A DNA stretch of 64,000 nt from Chryseobacterium sp. SN22 (GTDB lineage: Bacteria; Bacteroidota; Bacteroidia; Flavobacteriales; Weeksellaceae), in NCBI RefSeq assembly GCF_008329705.1, contig NZ_VTSX01000003.1, positions 62,001 through 126,000 of the forward strand, in the 5' to 3' direction. A model generated the notes under the pieces. The model made no database searches. It saw only the letters and a list, made by a program, of their open reading frames with translations, and was not told the DNA's origin. Every line of letters begins with the position of its first letter. The first letter of the stretch is position 1. The position numbers were made by a program, and so were the translations under genes. Positions 6,699-12,168 of the stretch are shown piece by piece.

Positions 6699-7817
6699 TT
6701 ACATTTCCAGTTCTACGATCCGTTCTGCCAGTTTCCGGTTGAAACGTTCCGGAACCATCCGCATGAGGAAATTCCGTAGAGCCGTTGCTCTTTCCCATTG
6801 GGAAAACTGCCCGATTTTCCAGCTGGTATCCACTATATAATCAACTTTTTTTCTTCTGATTTTCTGAAATTCTTTAAAAATATAGTTAAAATCATCCGTA
6901 CGCTCCAGCAATTTTCCCATGACATAGGCATCTTCAATCGACTGGCAGGCACCCTGGCCGAGATTTGGCGTTGTGGCATGGGCGGCATCACCGATCAGGC
7001 ATAGGTTGTCCGCATACCATTCCGGGATGGGAGCCAGATCGGTAAGCGCATTCAGGATAATATTTTCCGGTAGGGTGGCGTTAATCATATCAATAATCAT
7101 CGGATGAAAGCCGTGAAAGTTTTCGGCAATGCTTTGGTAACGCTTATGCAATCCTTGATTGATAACGGCATACCAGTATATTTTTTTGCCGGTCATCTTT
7201 ACAAAGCCAAAACGCTTTCCTTTGCCCCATATTTCTACGGCTTCCCGGCTGTATTGTTCCGGCAGGTCAAATTCTGCAAGCCCGCGCCAGCAGATCTGCC
7301 CTGTATCCCGGATTTTCCCGGTCTGCAATATATGGGCCCTGATTTTCGAATGGATCCCGTCAGCCCCGAAAACGATCCGGCTTTCAATTTCACTTCCGTT
7401 TTCAAAACGGAGCCGGTAATTTTCTTCTTTCCTGATTTCTTTCAGAGCATATTGCAGGTTAATCTTTTCAAAACCGATGTTTTCAGCCAGAATTCTTTGA
7501 AGATCCGCCCGGTGAATGGCGACGTTGCAGGAATTGTATTTCTTTTCCAGGGCAAGAACATGGGTGGTTGAGATATTCTTCAGGTGCCGGTCAGTCACAG
7601 AAACACTGTGGATTTTATGCCCGGCTTCTTCGATCTTTTCTTTCAGTCCGAGCTTATCAAAAATCTGCATGGCATTGATAGCCATCATAATTCCGGAGCC
7701 CACCGGTTTTATTTCCGGGGCAGATTCGTAAAGGGTAAAATCAAGGTTTTGTTTTTTCAGGATATTCGCAAGGGTTAAACCTCCGATTCCGGCACCGATA
7801 ATAGAAATAGGATTCAT
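6699..7817 (-). CDS. FAD-dependent monooxygenase (PHBH fold)
   Basis: A 372-residue group A flavoprotein monooxygenase. Residues 4-35 carry the Rossmann FAD-binding motif IIGAGIGGLTLAN followed by an acidic residue at the strand end (LYESAPE). The DG motif is ADGIHSKIR (about 152-160), and the GD motif is IGDAAHATTPNLGQGA (about 282-298). Such enzymes use NAD(P)H and O2 to hydroxylate aromatic or other substrates; the TetX-like group inactivates antibiotics. It is the last gene of a four-gene operon, and its ATG overlaps the stop of the lipoprotein gene by 4 bases. The substrate is unknown. Confidence 0.9.
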   Translation of the reverse strand: MNPISIIGAGIGGLTLANILKKQNLDFTLYESAPEIKPVGSGIMMAINAMQIFDKLGLKEKIEEAGHKIHSVSVTDRHLKNISTTHVLALEKKYNSCNVAIHRADLQRILAENIGFEKINLQYALKEIRKEENYRLRFENGSEIESRIVFGADGIHSKIRAHILQTGKIRDTGQICWRGLAEFDLPEQYSREAVEIWGKGKRFGFVKMTGKKIYWYAVINQGLHKRYQSIAENFHGFHPMIIDMINATLPENIILNALTDLAPIPEWYADNLCLIGDAAHATTPNLGQGACQSIEDAYVMGKLLERTDDFNYIFKEFQKIRRKKVDYIVDTSWKIGQFSQWERATALRNFLMRMVPERFNRKLAERIVELEM

Positions 7818-8413
7818 GAGTCTGCATTTTTCAGTGTATTCAGCAATTGATTCTGTTTCGTGATAAAATGCTCCAGACTGTCTGTCTTTAACGGATGGGC
7901 ATTCTGGTATTTTTCAATTTCGGGAAGGGTTTTCCTGATTTTGAATACTGTATATAGATTATTTATCATCTCCGTATTTTTAGAAATCCGGGAAATCAAA
8001 TTTTTAATATCCTTTATTTTTAAATTATATTTTTCAGCGCTTAATTTAATCTCATTTTCAATTTGATGTTTCATAAGCGAATCCGTTATGCTGCTGCTAT
8101 GACTTCTGGCATCACGATAATAAACATCGGATTTAATGAAAATATTTTCGTACTGTTGAATAACTTTTGATTCCTCTTGATGGATTTTTAGGATTTTATC
8201 GTCGAGGGCAGATAATTTTTTGTCATTTTTAATTAATTCGGAATAAATTTTATCAATTATATTATCATCATACCGGCTGCTCTCAAATGAACCTTTCAAA
8301 GATGAATCCGTGTCATCAACCGCATTTTCAATCAAAGGTTTATTTCCAGATCTGTTTTCTCCGCAGGAAAAAAATAGTAAAAACAGAGGGATAGTAAATA
8401 ATGTTTTTTTCAT
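7814..8413 (-). CDS. Hypothetical lipoprotein in the dioxygenase-like operon
   Basis: A 199-residue protein of unknown family. It begins with a lipoprotein signal peptide, KKTLFTIPLFLLFFSCG, with Cys17 as the probable lipidated residue. The mature part is charged, rich in Lys, Glu, Asp and Ser, and strongly helical, with long heptad-like stretches (about residues 50-190) that suggest a coiled coil. It sits between the oxygenase-like gene (8-base gap) and the FAD monooxygenase (4-base overlap), so the three are almost certainly translated from one message. A membrane-anchored partner role is inference. Confidence 0.75.
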   Translation of the reverse strand: MKKTLFTIPLFLLFFSCGENRSGNKPLIENAVDDTDSSLKGSFESSRYDDNIIDKIYSELIKNDKKLSALDDKILKIHQEESKVIQQYENIFIKSDVYYRDARSHSSSITDSLMKHQIENEIKLSAEKYNLKIKDIKNLISRISKNTEMINNLYTVFKIRKTLPEIEKYQNAHPLKTDSLEHFITKQNQLLNTLKNADS

Positions 8414-8421
8414 GGTCGTAT

Positions 8422-9222
8422 TTATGGTTTATTCTTGTTTTCAGGGATCAGAAGATCAGCAGGACTTATGGTGTAAGATAATTTAGGATACACAAAATCC
8501 AAAGACCGGTTTTCCTGGCTGCGCAGATGGAAAAATTCTTTTTCTTTCTCCTCATCAGCAAGAATCAGTAATTTTCCGTTCAGGAAATAAGGTTGAGTAT
8601 CCTCAAATTTTATGAAAGTTTTAGAAGTTCTGAAAGTCATCCCAAGCCATCTGTTATCGTGATAATCTTTAGGACTCTGCTTTGAACCCAGAATAATTTT
8701 ATGCTGGAATTTTTTATTGGTCTCTGTTGAAAATAAAACGACAGAATGGTGATCCAGTACAATTTCAGATTCTTCCTCTGTAATTTTGTTTTTTAAGACC
8801 AGTTTCCTTACCTGATTTTCCTGCAGGATATCCGGGTTTTCGTAACAAGAAAACAAAGCAATAAAAGAATTATCTTCCAGGTCGAGCGCCTGGTCAGAAT
8901 GAAATCCCATTTTGGAATAGGAGAGATCGTATACTTCGATCAAAGCGTTGTTAAAATCCTGTTCCGGCAATGCTGTAGTTGCGGCTGAAATAATTTTGTT
9001 GATCTGTTCAATAACCGTATGATGAACATCCGAAAATAAATTCGCGGGAATACTGTATCGTGTTGTCGTCCTTACAACCGCTATATTTCCATGATCTTCT
9101 TTTACAAGATGATTTCCCAATCTGCCTTTTCCCGTGGCTTCAAAGTCAGCGGAGTTCATCAGACTTTCAAATAAATTCTGCTCTGCCGGCAGTGTTATTT
9201 TATAAAACCCGTAAACATTCAT
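8422..9222 (-). CDS. 2OG-Fe(II) oxygenase-like protein, short paralogue
   Basis: A 266-residue protein with the features of the 2-oxoglutarate/Fe(II) dioxygenase superfamily in an AlkB-like order. HSD (in SKMGFHSDQAL, about residue 122) supplies His and Asp, KFQHKII (about 182) supplies the distal His, and WLGMTFRTSK (about 203) has an Arg placed to bind 2-oxoglutarate. No signal peptide is seen. It is homologous along its length to the C-terminal two thirds of the 409-residue protein encoded just upstream, whose stop overlaps this ATG by one base. The substrate is unknown; nucleic acid, protein or small molecule are all possible. The superfamily call rests on motifs read by eye. Confidence 0.65.
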   Translation of the reverse strand: MNVYGFYKITLPAEQNLFESLMNSADFEATGKGRLGNHLVKEDHGNIAVVRTTTRYSIPANLFSDVHHTVIEQINKIISAATTALPEQDFNNALIEVYDLSYSKMGFHSDQALDLEDNSFIALFSCYENPDILQENQVRKLVLKNKITEEESEIVLDHHSVVLFSTETNKKFQHKIILGSKQSPKDYHDNRWLGMTFRTSKTFIKFEDTQPYFLNGKLLILADEEKEKEFFHLRSQENRSLDFVYPKLSYTISPADLLIPENKNKP

Positions 9223-10451
9223 TACAGCAAAGGTTTTTCATAATCGCCCAGATTCATGCTGAAATGCGTTTTCCTGTATTCCACCATATTTGCCGTCATG
9301 TTTTCCTCATAATATGAATTCCGCAACTCTGCCTGCATTTCTGGTGTCATTTGCTCCAGTTTAATGCACTCATCATTTTCTCTGATGTAAGTATGGTTAT
9401 CCTTGTAAATCGCTTCAAGATTTGAACAGCGGACCACATAACCCATCCTTATCGGAATCTGATCGACCCCCAGAATAGAAGGGCGGATCTCATGCGTGTA
9501 CAGCCTGTTGGTAGATAACGGAATAATGAATGCGGAATCCGGATATAAAGTCACCGTAAATGCTTTTTCCAGGGATTGGTCTTCAACAGTTTTCTTGAGT
9601 CTGAAATGAAGTCTTGTCAGTGCACTGGTCTGCTTATAGCAAACGTCAAACCGGTCCGTTTCCGATGGCTTCAAATGCTTGGAATTGGAATTGTCATAAA
9701 AAGTACAGAAAGCGATCAGCCCTTCTTTCGGCATATCCTTCGTTTTGTCGGAGTGGGCTTTAATCTTGGCTTTGGATTCCTTTTCAGTATCCGGTGTTTT
9801 CTTCCTATTTTCATAGATCTGCACCAAAGCATGGTTCAGATCGGTTTTGTATTCAAAAGTTTCCTCTGCACATTGATTCAGCAGAGCGATAATTTTGCAG
9901 TCTGTTTCTCTGAAATTATCGGTTGGGCCTGTCAGATTACTGGAGCACCGCAGAAGATTAAAGTGTAGTATTTCTTCTTCATCAGATTCTTTGGTCACTT
10001 TACTAAGGTAGATGCCTTTCCTTAATGCTTTTGCTTCTTTGTTAGATTCGGTAAGTTCCTGAAAATGATGTTCGGATTTTACCTTTTCAAAAATATTTCC
10101 TTCATGAAAAAGCTTTCGGAAATAGACTCCTGCATTGCTGACGATCACAGGAACCGCTCCGATACTTACCGTTTCATATTTTTCTTCACGGATGTTTTCG
10201 TAATTCACTGAAAATTCACTGATGACATGCATGAAATAGCTGTTTTCCCGAAGGTCAATTAAATCTCCGCAGATGTATATTTTTTTGTGATCAAGTCCGG
10301 GGACTAATTCACGAACTATAGTTCCGCAGAAATTTTCAATAATATACTGGAGCTCTGCGTTGATTTCCTGATTATTTAAAACGACAAGAACGTTTTTTTC
10401 TTTTGATATTTTATTTTCCACTGAATAGTTATTCATTTTCTTATAATGCAC
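9222..10451 (-). CDS. 2OG-Fe(II) oxygenase-like protein, long paralogue with N-terminal extension
   Basis: A 409-residue protein, first gene of the minus-strand operon. Residues from about 105 onward align with the 266-residue neighbour: GVYFRKLFHEGNIFE matches GFYKITLPAEQNLFE, and HALVQIYEN matches NALIEVYDL. The triad is conserved as HSD in IKAHSDKTKD (about 230), His in YTHEIRP (about 325) and Arg in MGYVVRCS. The first 100 residues (with PGLDHKKIYICGDLID) form an extra domain I do not recognise. A charged Lys/Glu-rich insert precedes the HSD. A second ATG five codons in (MNNYSVE) may be the true start. Function unknown; the operon context suggests it acts with its paralogue and the FAD monooxygenase. 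Confidence 0.6.
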   Translation of the reverse strand: MHYKKMNNYSVENKISKEKNVLVVLNNQEINAELQYIIENFCGTIVRELVPGLDHKKIYICGDLIDLRENSYFMHVISEFSVNYENIREEKYETVSIGAVPVIVSNAGVYFRKLFHEGNIFEKVKSEHHFQELTESNKEAKALRKGIYLSKVTKESDEEEILHFNLLRCSSNLTGPTDNFRETDCKIIALLNQCAEETFEYKTDLNHALVQIYENRKKTPDTEKESKAKIKAHSDKTKDMPKEGLIAFCTFYDNSNSKHLKPSETDRFDVCYKQTSALTRLHFRLKKTVEDQSLEKAFTVTLYPDSAFIIPLSTNRLYTHEIRPSILGVDQIPIRMGYVVRCSNLEAIYKDNHTYIRENDECIKLEQMTPEMQAELRNSYYEENMTANMVEYRKTHFSMNLGDYEKPLL

Positions 10452-10784: not shown

Positions 10785-10816
10785 AAATAAAAGAGACGGT
10801 CCGGAAACCATCTCTT
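10785..10816 (-). terminator. Rho-independent terminator for the 415-residue lipoprotein
   Basis: Ten-base stem AAGAGACGGT / ACCATCTCTT (one wobble) with a 6-base loop, followed on the minus strand by a long T-rich run. It is about 105 bases after the lipoprotein stop. Confidence 0.75.
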
Positions 10817-10920
10817 CTTTATTTCGGATGTCAATGTGAACTTCAAAAACTTCCAGCATACTCTTCCAGCCTATAAATCTGATTCTGCTTCAGGTTGACA
10901 TCAATTCAAACTCAACTTTT

Positions 10921-12168
10921 CTATTCATACTTGGAAAAATCAACGGCAAATATACACCGGTTCACCTGGCTTCCATTCTGTGCGCCTGCGTTGGGCTCAA
11001 ATTCCGTAAGACTCCACAGGTAATTATACTGGGATTCGTGGTAGAGCGATTCCGCTCCGTAGGGCCAGCGGAAACGTACTGTATCGTCAGCGCCATCGGT
11101 ATAACGGGCCAGTCTTGCATTGGATCCGTAAGAATTGCTCGGGGATCCGGTACAGGAAAGCCAGGTCCGGGTTCCTTTTCTGAATACGCCCTGTATTCCA
11201 TGCGCATGGTTATCGGTAAAAAGGCTGTTTTTCGGTGCTACCGATACAATTCCGCTATTCTGAAGTGTTCCGTTGGCATCAACAGGAAATCCGAAGACTT
11301 TAGGAACGATGGAAGCATCAGCGCTACCTGAATAATATTGTCCGGTCCAAAACTGGGTTCCTTCATCATTGACTTGAATTGTGGAAAAAGGATTGGCATT
11401 GTTGATTTTCTGATAGCCCGTCTGAGGCAGGATATACCGGTAATTGAAAGCGAATGAATTACCGTTGGAATCTTTACCGCATTTGTCATTGGTTGTATCG
11501 CCTGTGCTTACTTCAATGATTTTATCCAGATCAAATACACGGACCCCTAAATTCGTACTGCTGATATAGATTTTACCTTTAAAATAGGCCATCCCACCGG
11601 CATGCACGTTTAGCGGGGCGTATGAACCGTATTGTAAGTAACCTGTCGGGGTTGCCGGAATATCGGGCTGCACCAGCAGAATATGGCGATAGGTAAGATA
11701 AGTAGCTGAACCCGGACTGATGTCGATCAGGGTAATTCGCGATCCTTTGTATGCAGCTTCATTTTTGGCATACCAGCTTACCAGAAGATAGCGTACACCA
11801 TCTTTGCTGAATCCTGCAATTCCCTGCGGTCTCCAGAGCGGTGTTGTTTCATCATCGGTATTCCAGCGGATGCCTCTTACCCTGTTTTCTTCAGGAATAT
11901 TGAATCCGTAAACTTCCGTATAAGCGCTTCCGCCAATGGCCTGGCGGTTTTTATTGATCTGTGACGGATTTAAAAAACTGAAACCGGAATTGATATAGTT
12001 GCTGGTATCTACATAAGCATTAACACTTACGCTTGTATCTACAGATGCTCTGCCGGTATTGTCTTTTAAATACGGTTCTTCTTCTGTTGATGTTAGGGCA
12101 TTGTTCTGGCACCCGATGCCGGCCAGAGTACACAAAAGCATCCATCCAAGGAATTTTTTCTGAATCAT
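10921..12168 (-). CDS. Hypothetical secreted lipoprotein, probable beta-propeller
   Basis: A 415-residue exported protein. The N-terminus is a lipoprotein signal peptide (MLLCTLAGIGCQN, lipidated Cys about residue 20). A Ser/Thr-rich linker follows, and then a beta-rich body with repeated elements such as GIAGFSKDGVRYLLVSWY, AGGMAYFKGKIYISST and VRVFDLDKII. These elements resemble blades of a six- or seven-bladed propeller of the LVIVD/secreted type. Trp and Tyr are frequent, as in carbohydrate-facing surface proteins. No catalytic motif is recognised. It stands alone, with a terminator downstream. The propeller call is inference from the repeat pattern. Confidence 0.65.
   Translation of the reverse strand: MIQKKFLGWMLLCTLAGIGCQNNALTSTEEEPYLKDNTGRASVDTSVSVNAYVDTSNYINSGFSFLNPSQINKNRQAIGGSAYTEVYGFNIPEENRVRGIRWNTDDETTPLWRPQGIAGFSKDGVRYLLVSWYAKNEAAYKGSRITLIDISPGSATYLTYRHILLVQPDIPATPTGYLQYGSYAPLNVHAGGMAYFKGKIYISSTNLGVRVFDLDKIIEVSTGDTTNDKCGKDSNGNSFAFNYRYILPQTGYQKINNANPFSTIQVNDEGTQFWTGQYYSGSADASIVPKVFGFPVDANGTLQNSGIVSVAPKNSLFTDNHAHGIQGVFRKGTRTWLSCTGSPSNSYGSNARLARYTDGADDTVRFRWPYGAESLYHESQYNYLWSLTEFEPNAGAQNGSQVNRCIFAVDFSKYE

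Follow-up and report, generated by a model that had tools for sequence, protein, structure and literature searches.

We examined a stretch of 64,000 nucleotides from Chryseobacterium sp. SN22 (Bacteroidota; NZ_VTSX01000003.1, positions 62,001 to 126,000), hereafter the window, and within it two adjacent genes, A and B, whose products resemble Fe(II)- and 2-oxoglutarate (2OG)-dependent oxygenases of the AlkB type. An initial annotation had joined these genes with two others, C and D, in a four-gene operon encoding two 2OG oxygenase-like proteins, a lipoprotein and a flavin adenine dinucleotide (FAD)-dependent monooxygenase, and had proposed that the four form one system. All four open reading frames (ORFs) lie on the minus strand at the positions given there, and their coordinates bear out the tight packing it described, with an overlap of 1 base between A and B, a gap of 8 bases between B and C and an overlap of 4 bases between C and D. 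The predicted products of C and D agree with it as well: a lipobox, FFSC, can be read in the sequence of C, and D matches PF01494 (expectation value, E, 1.2e-18). The features at the locus are as follows.

9222..10436, minus strand: gene A, AlkB-type oxygenase, 404 amino acids from the ATG at 10436, with an earlier GTG start at 10451
8422..9222, minus strand: gene B, AlkB-type paralogue of A
7814..8413, minus strand: gene C, small lipoprotein, a Chryseobacterium chromosomal gene downstream of the A–B module and outside it
6699..7817, minus strand: gene D, FAD-dependent monooxygenase of group A, a Chryseobacterium chromosomal gene downstream of the A–B module and outside it
10789..10818, minus strand: terminator-like hairpin between A and the upstream gene, with 13 pairs and a T-rich tail
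10921..12168, minus strand: upstream gene, 415 amino acids, outside the A–B module and about 480 bases before A

Translation of A most likely begins at the ATG at 10436 and not at the GTG at 10451, because alignment with relatives supports the ATG.

Fold and relationship of A and B

Gene B clears the cut-off of Pfam family PF13532 (E 5.9e-10; 40.1 bits against 31.2). Gene A falls far below it (E 0.022; 15.4 bits against 31.2), and at E up to 0.1 the family is matched by 18 of 38 A members, the best at 8.4e-5. Compared directly by BLASTP (E 5e-7, 22 percent identity), the two proteins align along almost all of B, and by this sequence measure they are paralogues. AlphaFold models built from 38 sequences of A and 37 of B had mean predicted local distance difference test scores of 87.9 and 92.5, respectively, and were compared with the PDB by Foldseek and VIA-align. 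For both models the best solved match was human ABH2 (A: Z 17.2, root-mean-square deviation 3.1, 190 aligned; B: Z 17.0, root-mean-square deviation 2.5, 174 aligned), and the top solved-structure matches are the nucleic-acid demethylases ABH2, ABH3, FTO and AlkB. The double-stranded beta-helix of AlkB is thus predicted for each protein, and the model of A is clearly AlkB-like despite the sub-threshold Pfam score. The initial description of the two as 2OG oxygenase-like therefore stands, for B by its Pfam score and for A by its predicted structure, the beta-helix being present in both models.

Beyond this shared fold, A carries about 90 additional residues at its N terminus, and both proteins extend about 65 residues past the C-terminal end of AlkB. 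Sequence searches of solved structures gave no match to the A or B profiles at E up to 1, and none to B alone at E up to 10. A weak PHROG match of B is to an alkylated-DNA-repair family (E 5.7e-4). The ratio of nonsynonymous to synonymous substitution rates (dN/dS), measured against two relatives with dS partly saturated, is 0.10 and 0.12 for A and 0.10 and 0.19 for B, values that suggest purifying selection on both genes.

Active sites

To place the active-site residues, E. coli AlkB and 20 canonical AlkBs were aligned with 45 A and 44 B sequences, the halves of fusion proteins (described below) included. The canonical AlkBs were hand-picked from PF13532 matches in relatives, and two of them come from the window's own genome. 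The HxD...H iron triad (AlkB H131, D133 and H187) is complete in 45/45 A, 44/44 B and 20/20 canonical sequences. In the window it corresponds to H228, D230 and H315 of A, numbered from the ATG at 10436, and to H108, D110 and H174 of B.

The two groups part ways in the 2OG pocket. In AlkB structures, R204 binds the far carboxylate of 2OG. An arginine occupies its position in all 20 canonical sequences and in all 45 A, and a tryptophan in all 44 B (W192 in the window). At the position of AlkB R210 the arginine is kept in 45/45 A and 43/44 B (R198 in the window). In other words, the RxxxxxR motif for 2OG is kept in every A (R330 and R336 in the window) and is not kept in B, where its first arginine is replaced. 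The position of AlkB N120 is equally uniform within each group, with asparagine in 20/20 canonical AlkBs, glutamine in 45/45 A and glutamate in 44/44 B (E96 in the window). The position of AlkB D135 is acidic in all 20 canonical sequences, threonine in 45/45 A and mixed in B; Asp135 of AlkB serves in the recognition of protonated bases (PMC3788762). Judged from these residues, A looks like a working 2OG oxygenase with an altered substrate pocket, and B looks able to keep its iron while no longer accommodating 2OG in the usual manner.

E. coli AlkB and human ABH2 and ABH3 thus resemble A and B in the double-stranded beta-helix and the iron triad, and they have the RxxxxxR motif in common with A. 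They differ in that here two divergent paralogues travel together. Relative to AlkB, B is without the first 2OG arginine, and A has a threonine in place of Asp135 as well as the additional N-terminal part.

Distribution of the pair across bacteria

Two peptide patterns of A, scanned against 84,980 species genomes, picked out 54 loci. They lie in Chryseobacterium and other Bacteroidota, in Calothrix, Nostoc and Scytonematopsis (Cyanobacteriota), and in two metagenome-assembled genomes (MAGs), one of Myxococcales and one labelled 'Limnohabitans'. B is present in 51 of the 54, and in 50 of them the B match begins at most 30 bases from where that of A ends. Three loci lack B. The Myxococcales MAG has its A close to a contig end and a B at the very start of another contig; the Scytonematopsis locus holds fragments of both genes; the third, in Aureivirga, is described below. 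Among 395 Bacteroidota genomes sampled, three carry A, one of them that of the window, and these three also have strong B matches; nine others gave weak, partial B matches only.

Adjacent A–B pairs also occur in Actinomycetota, in two Embleya records and one Nonomuraea record. Within 8 kilobases (kb) on each side, these three pairs have no ORF of at least 100 amino acids in common outside A–B (E up to 1e-8). The Nonomuraea record (L152, NZ_LT559118.1) is labelled 'plasmid I' and, at 11.85 megabases, is probably a chromosome. The pair in the 'Limnohabitans' MAG (L115) lies on a contig binned to Pseudomonadota (JASGCW010000056.1), and the trees place its A and B with copies from Bacteroidota; the contig may be misbinned. 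A–B is a patchily spread two-gene module that apparently moves horizontally.

Fusions and trees

A was found in three of 244 genomes from the phylum of Calothrix: Calothrix itself and two others, each with A and B fused, in that order, within a single open frame.

L170, 724-2775, minus strand: A–B fusion, single open frame, 683 codons
L171, 1414-3384, plus strand: A–B fusion, single open frame, 661 codons

Aligned over 655 residues, the fusions share 59 percent identity. To follow their descent and that of the separate genes we used quick trees, with support from the Shimodaira–Hasegawa-like approximate likelihood ratio test only. Of the 54 loci, 37 gave rows of the A alignment and 36 of the B alignment, plus the window in each; the rows omit broken copies, loci lacking a usable B, redundant Chryseobacterium and Winogradskyella-type copies, and L116 (an intact A of 403 amino acids). 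In both the A and the B tree the fusions group with the Actinomycetota pairs and not with the Calothrix and Nostoc pairs, L171 on a long branch.

Distances in the A and B trees are closely correlated (r 0.92 for 42 pairs, and 0.79 once five divergent rows are removed), and in either case none of 2,000 permutations reached as high a value. A high r would, however, also be expected from shared vertical descent alone. The five divergent rows were excluded only here and in the test of the endonuclease V-like group given below. All seven rows from Chryseobacterium fall into a single supported clade, which joins copies from Xanthocytophaga and Chitinophaga rather than those of Flavobacteriaceae. This placement suggests transfer.

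Fusion and near-obligate adjacency bear on whether A and B act together. The two could be separate, individually active oxygenases that catalyse successive or parallel steps, with B using 2OG or another cosubstrate through different ligands. The complete triad in all B sequences and the second arginine in 43 of 44 would fit such an arrangement, as would purifying selection on both genes. Counter to this, W192 and E96 are invariant across the Bacteroidota, Cyanobacteriota and Actinomycetota rows, and fusion and adjacency fit one complex better, although fused enzymes for successive steps also exist. On balance we regard two independent activities as unlikely.

A–B and its neighbours in Chryseobacterium

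The relation of A–B to C and D was surveyed in 147 relatives, the window's genome included, 88 of which belong to the same genus. A and B occur in the same 13 genomes, all of them among the 88. Further matches are weak: one for A (G142) and five for B (G023, G066, G084, G089 and G104), the latter of partial coverage and 25 to 31 percent identity, in genomes that have PF13532 matches. C was found in 73 of the 147 (E cut-off 1e-3) and D in 74 (E cut-off 1e-30). Among the 30 C loci listed, D shares the stretch with C in 26 and A/B in eight.

Twelve genomes of the genus without A–B, chosen from the C and D matches, show what the site looks like when the pair is absent. C comes after rpoD in all 12, a small gene intervening in three and C being broken in G060; D is present in 11, and an acetyltransferase gene stands between C and D in three. 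Because genomes lacking A–B have rpoD and then C–D at this site, A–B is an accessory pair at one chromosomal place, between rpoD and C–D. The carriers vary too: G083 has no D there, G081 has no C and C is broken in G014, and C and D are spaced by about 570 bases in G010 and about 860 in G051. A is broken in two of the 13 carriers, G062 and G081. In L106, which corresponds to G051, this space holds an acetyltransferase gene. More broadly, a GCN5-related N-acetyltransferase gene was seen between C and D, or before D where C is missing, in several Chryseobacterium genomes (L105-L109, L159, L160 and L165), so the overlap of C and D is itself not constant.

Decayed copies of A and/or B were observed at L144 (CP078104.1, probably the genome G062), G081 and L149, and at the two Chryseobacterium sites among them, L144 and G081, C is missing, as if the module were being lost there.

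The initial proposal of a single oxidative tailoring pathway encoded by A, B, C and D does not survive this comparison. Its best support is the packing with overlaps, which makes cotranscription probable in this genome; that part of the proposal can be kept for SN22, but the four-gene set is not constant even among the 13 carriers. Against it, C and D are each several times as frequent as A–B in the relatives and follow rpoD where A–B is absent. Outside Chryseobacterium the converse holds: among the 54 loci C is confined to those of the genus, and the only D-like match elsewhere (L110) is 22 percent similar and on the other strand, so that neither C nor a co-oriented D accompanies A–B there. 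Since C–D is widespread without A–B, and A–B occurs across phyla without C–D, the supported unit is A–B alone. C and D belong to the Chryseobacterium chromosome and are local neighbours of A–B, not parts of the module. We consider a four-gene pathway scarcely credible.

We also considered whether A–B stands in for a missing AlkB, and rejected this. PF13532 matches are present in all 88 genomes of the genus, and the window's genome has three, both of the listed ones on other contigs; A–B is therefore an addition and not a replacement.

A patchily spread pair with a fixed place in Chryseobacterium and probable transfer between phyla might instead be an anti-phage defence system or cargo of a phage or other mobile element. 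Several searches speak against this. Neither A nor B had a PADLOC match at E up to 1, no phage record matched A (the only one of the two searched there), and three scans of viral contigs yielded none with A or B. Among the neighbours looked at, most of them unannotated, no defence gene was noticed. We regard such a role as very unlikely.

Upstream of A, the hairpin at 10818-10789 separates the gene from its upstream neighbour; it was recovered by a terminator scan that found 10 sites where shuffled sequence gave 5.8 expected. The Bacteroidota promoter consensus has three matches in the window, which equals chance expectation, and none near A; a sigma-70 promoter scan was likewise at chance level. 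The 415-residue upstream protein (10921-12168) had zero Pfam or NCBIfam matches at E up to 1. It has a lipoprotein-like start, and relatives of it lie upstream of A in six Chryseobacterium A–B loci (L096-L101). Weak matches of C to Relaxase_C and DrmD were taken as chance, the sequence being helical.

Substrate and the endonuclease V-like neighbour

The solved structures closest to the A and B folds (ABH2, ABH3, AlkB and FTO) raise the possibility that the pair acts on nucleic acid. A gene found beside it at some loci is relevant here.

L114, L117, L118, L123, L133, L134, L136-L139, L141, L143 and L146: endonuclease V-like gene just downstream of B

These are 13 of the 54 loci; the gene also follows B in L153, which matches L118. 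In both members scanned, the product passes the cut-off of the endonuclease V family PF04493 (E 8.3e-13 and 4.8e-9), but it is a short, divergent protein of about 170 amino acids and the match is weak. Among the ORFs listed, the gap between B and this gene ranges from -44 to 44 bases, the value of -44 reflecting the choice of a long start. Pairs with this neighbour do not form one clade. Four changes are needed on the tree, three of them forced by starred branches, and a single clade is rejected by the approximately unbiased test (p 2.5e-7). The test used a quick tree, and the A tree had been seen before the group was named. In the window's genome (G000) the PF04493 match is unlinked to A–B, on another contig (G000:C35:10468-10800), and endonuclease V lies away from A–B in this and the three other genomes of the genus searched.

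The recurrence of this neighbour on separate branches hints at a nucleic-acid substrate. A role in nucleic-acid repair or RNA modification, in concert with the small endonuclease V-like protein, would be compatible with A and B forming one enzyme, and we hold it to be a serious possibility, if somewhat short of an even one. The usual repair of 1-methyladenine and 3-methylcytosine is made less likely by the threonine that every A has at the position of AlkB Asp135, acidic in all canonical sequences. Moreover, carriers of A–B already have ordinary AlkBs, as all 88 genomes of the genus have PF13532 matches, which indicates a different substrate.

A proposed two-subunit oxygenase and its precedents

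We consider it probable, at somewhat better than even confidence, that A and B together make up one AlkB-type Fe(II)/2OG oxygenase, with A as its catalytic subunit and B as a remodelled partner. What this study shows is that A and B are paralogues with a predicted AlkB fold and conserved residues, that they are nearly always paired and sometimes fused in nature, and that their trees agree. From these observations we infer that A and B form a physical complex, which of the two subunits is active, and that nucleic acid is the substrate.

In the mechanism we propose, the module would move between bacteria as two genes. A would hold Fe(II) by H228, D230 and H315 and 2OG by Y208, R330 and R336, activate O2 and hydroxylate a substrate. 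B would retain the AlkB fold and the iron residues around a rebuilt 2OG pocket (Arg to Trp, Asn to Glu) and, given that rebuilding, most likely does not carry out the usual 2OG turnover. As an obligate partner, it would probably stabilise A or aid substrate binding. C and D would be local Chryseobacterium genes that A–B happens to precede.

The division of labour between a catalytic A and an obligate partner B is proposed because of an analogy with TlxI and TlxJ. These proteins form a heterodimer in fungal talaromyolide biosynthesis, TlxI is without the 2OG-binding arginine and is called catalytically incompetent, kcat/Km is 1.63 per min per µM for the heterodimer versus 0.02 for TlxJ alone, and TalA is a natural chimera of the TlxI/TlxJ type (PMC12141560). 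The likeness to A–B is that of a paralogous Fe/2OG pair, one member of it lacking the 2OG arginine, together with a natural chimera of both. Unlike A–B, TlxI and TlxJ belong to another branch of the superfamily and tailor fungal meroterpenoids. Heterodimer and activity are proven there, whereas A–B is known from sequence and models. The order of the parts also differs, TalA having the inactive part first and the A–B fusions the active-type part. We consider TlxI/TlxJ the closest precedent for the architecture that A–B appears to have.

Within the AlkB family, a further comparison is offered by the ALKBH9-16 subfamilies of Mielecki et al. (2012), who note that the majority of the outlying sequences are cyanobacterial (PMC3265494). 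Like A and B, these are AlkB-family proteins outside the classical groups, as far as that text describes them. In the portions available it mentions no tandem or fused AlkB pair; the comparison is with the text and not with the sequences of the groups. Nor was a tandem or fused AlkB pair found in the open-licence literature among the matches listed, including the parts available of PMC3788762, PMC8868631 and PMC3265494.

Several points weigh against a catalytic A with a remodelled partner B. A purely structural subunit would not need the full iron triad that all 44 B sequences keep, and B may therefore be catalytic with an unusual cosubstrate mode. The assignment of the tryptophan of B to the R204 position is based on sequence alignment and a predicted strand, not on an inspected superposition, and two pairs of rows behind the residue counts (L118 and L153, L142 and L155) are the same proteins apart from length. 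The pairing has exceptions. About 2 kb separate A from B in L129, and Aureivirga sp. CE67 has an intact-looking A (400 amino acids) and no B, the closest thing to one being a weak AlkB-like match (E 1.1e-4); this A may work alone, or the copy may be on its way out. A and/or B are broken in G062, G081, L103, L120, L143 and L149. As for a link with the endonuclease V-like gene, a match to endonuclease V was found in all 19 A–B genomes searched, and in 13 of these, that of the window among them, none lies beside A–B by position.

A more specific form of the two-subunit model would make A–B the first AlkB-family enzyme to consist of two subunits, fused in some cases, combining a catalytic AlkB with a metal-binding, 2OG-incompetent 'pseudo-oxygenase', directed at a lesion or modification beyond 1-methyladenine and 3-methylcytosine and coupled in some lineages to an endonuclease V-like nuclease. 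We put this forward tentatively, as a rather doubtful extension.

If A and B are indeed subunits of one enzyme, they would represent a new architecture for the AlkB family, whose repair enzymes are described as single-protein systems. The pair would also provide a system for asking how an oxygenase partner loses cosubstrate binding yet keeps its metal site.

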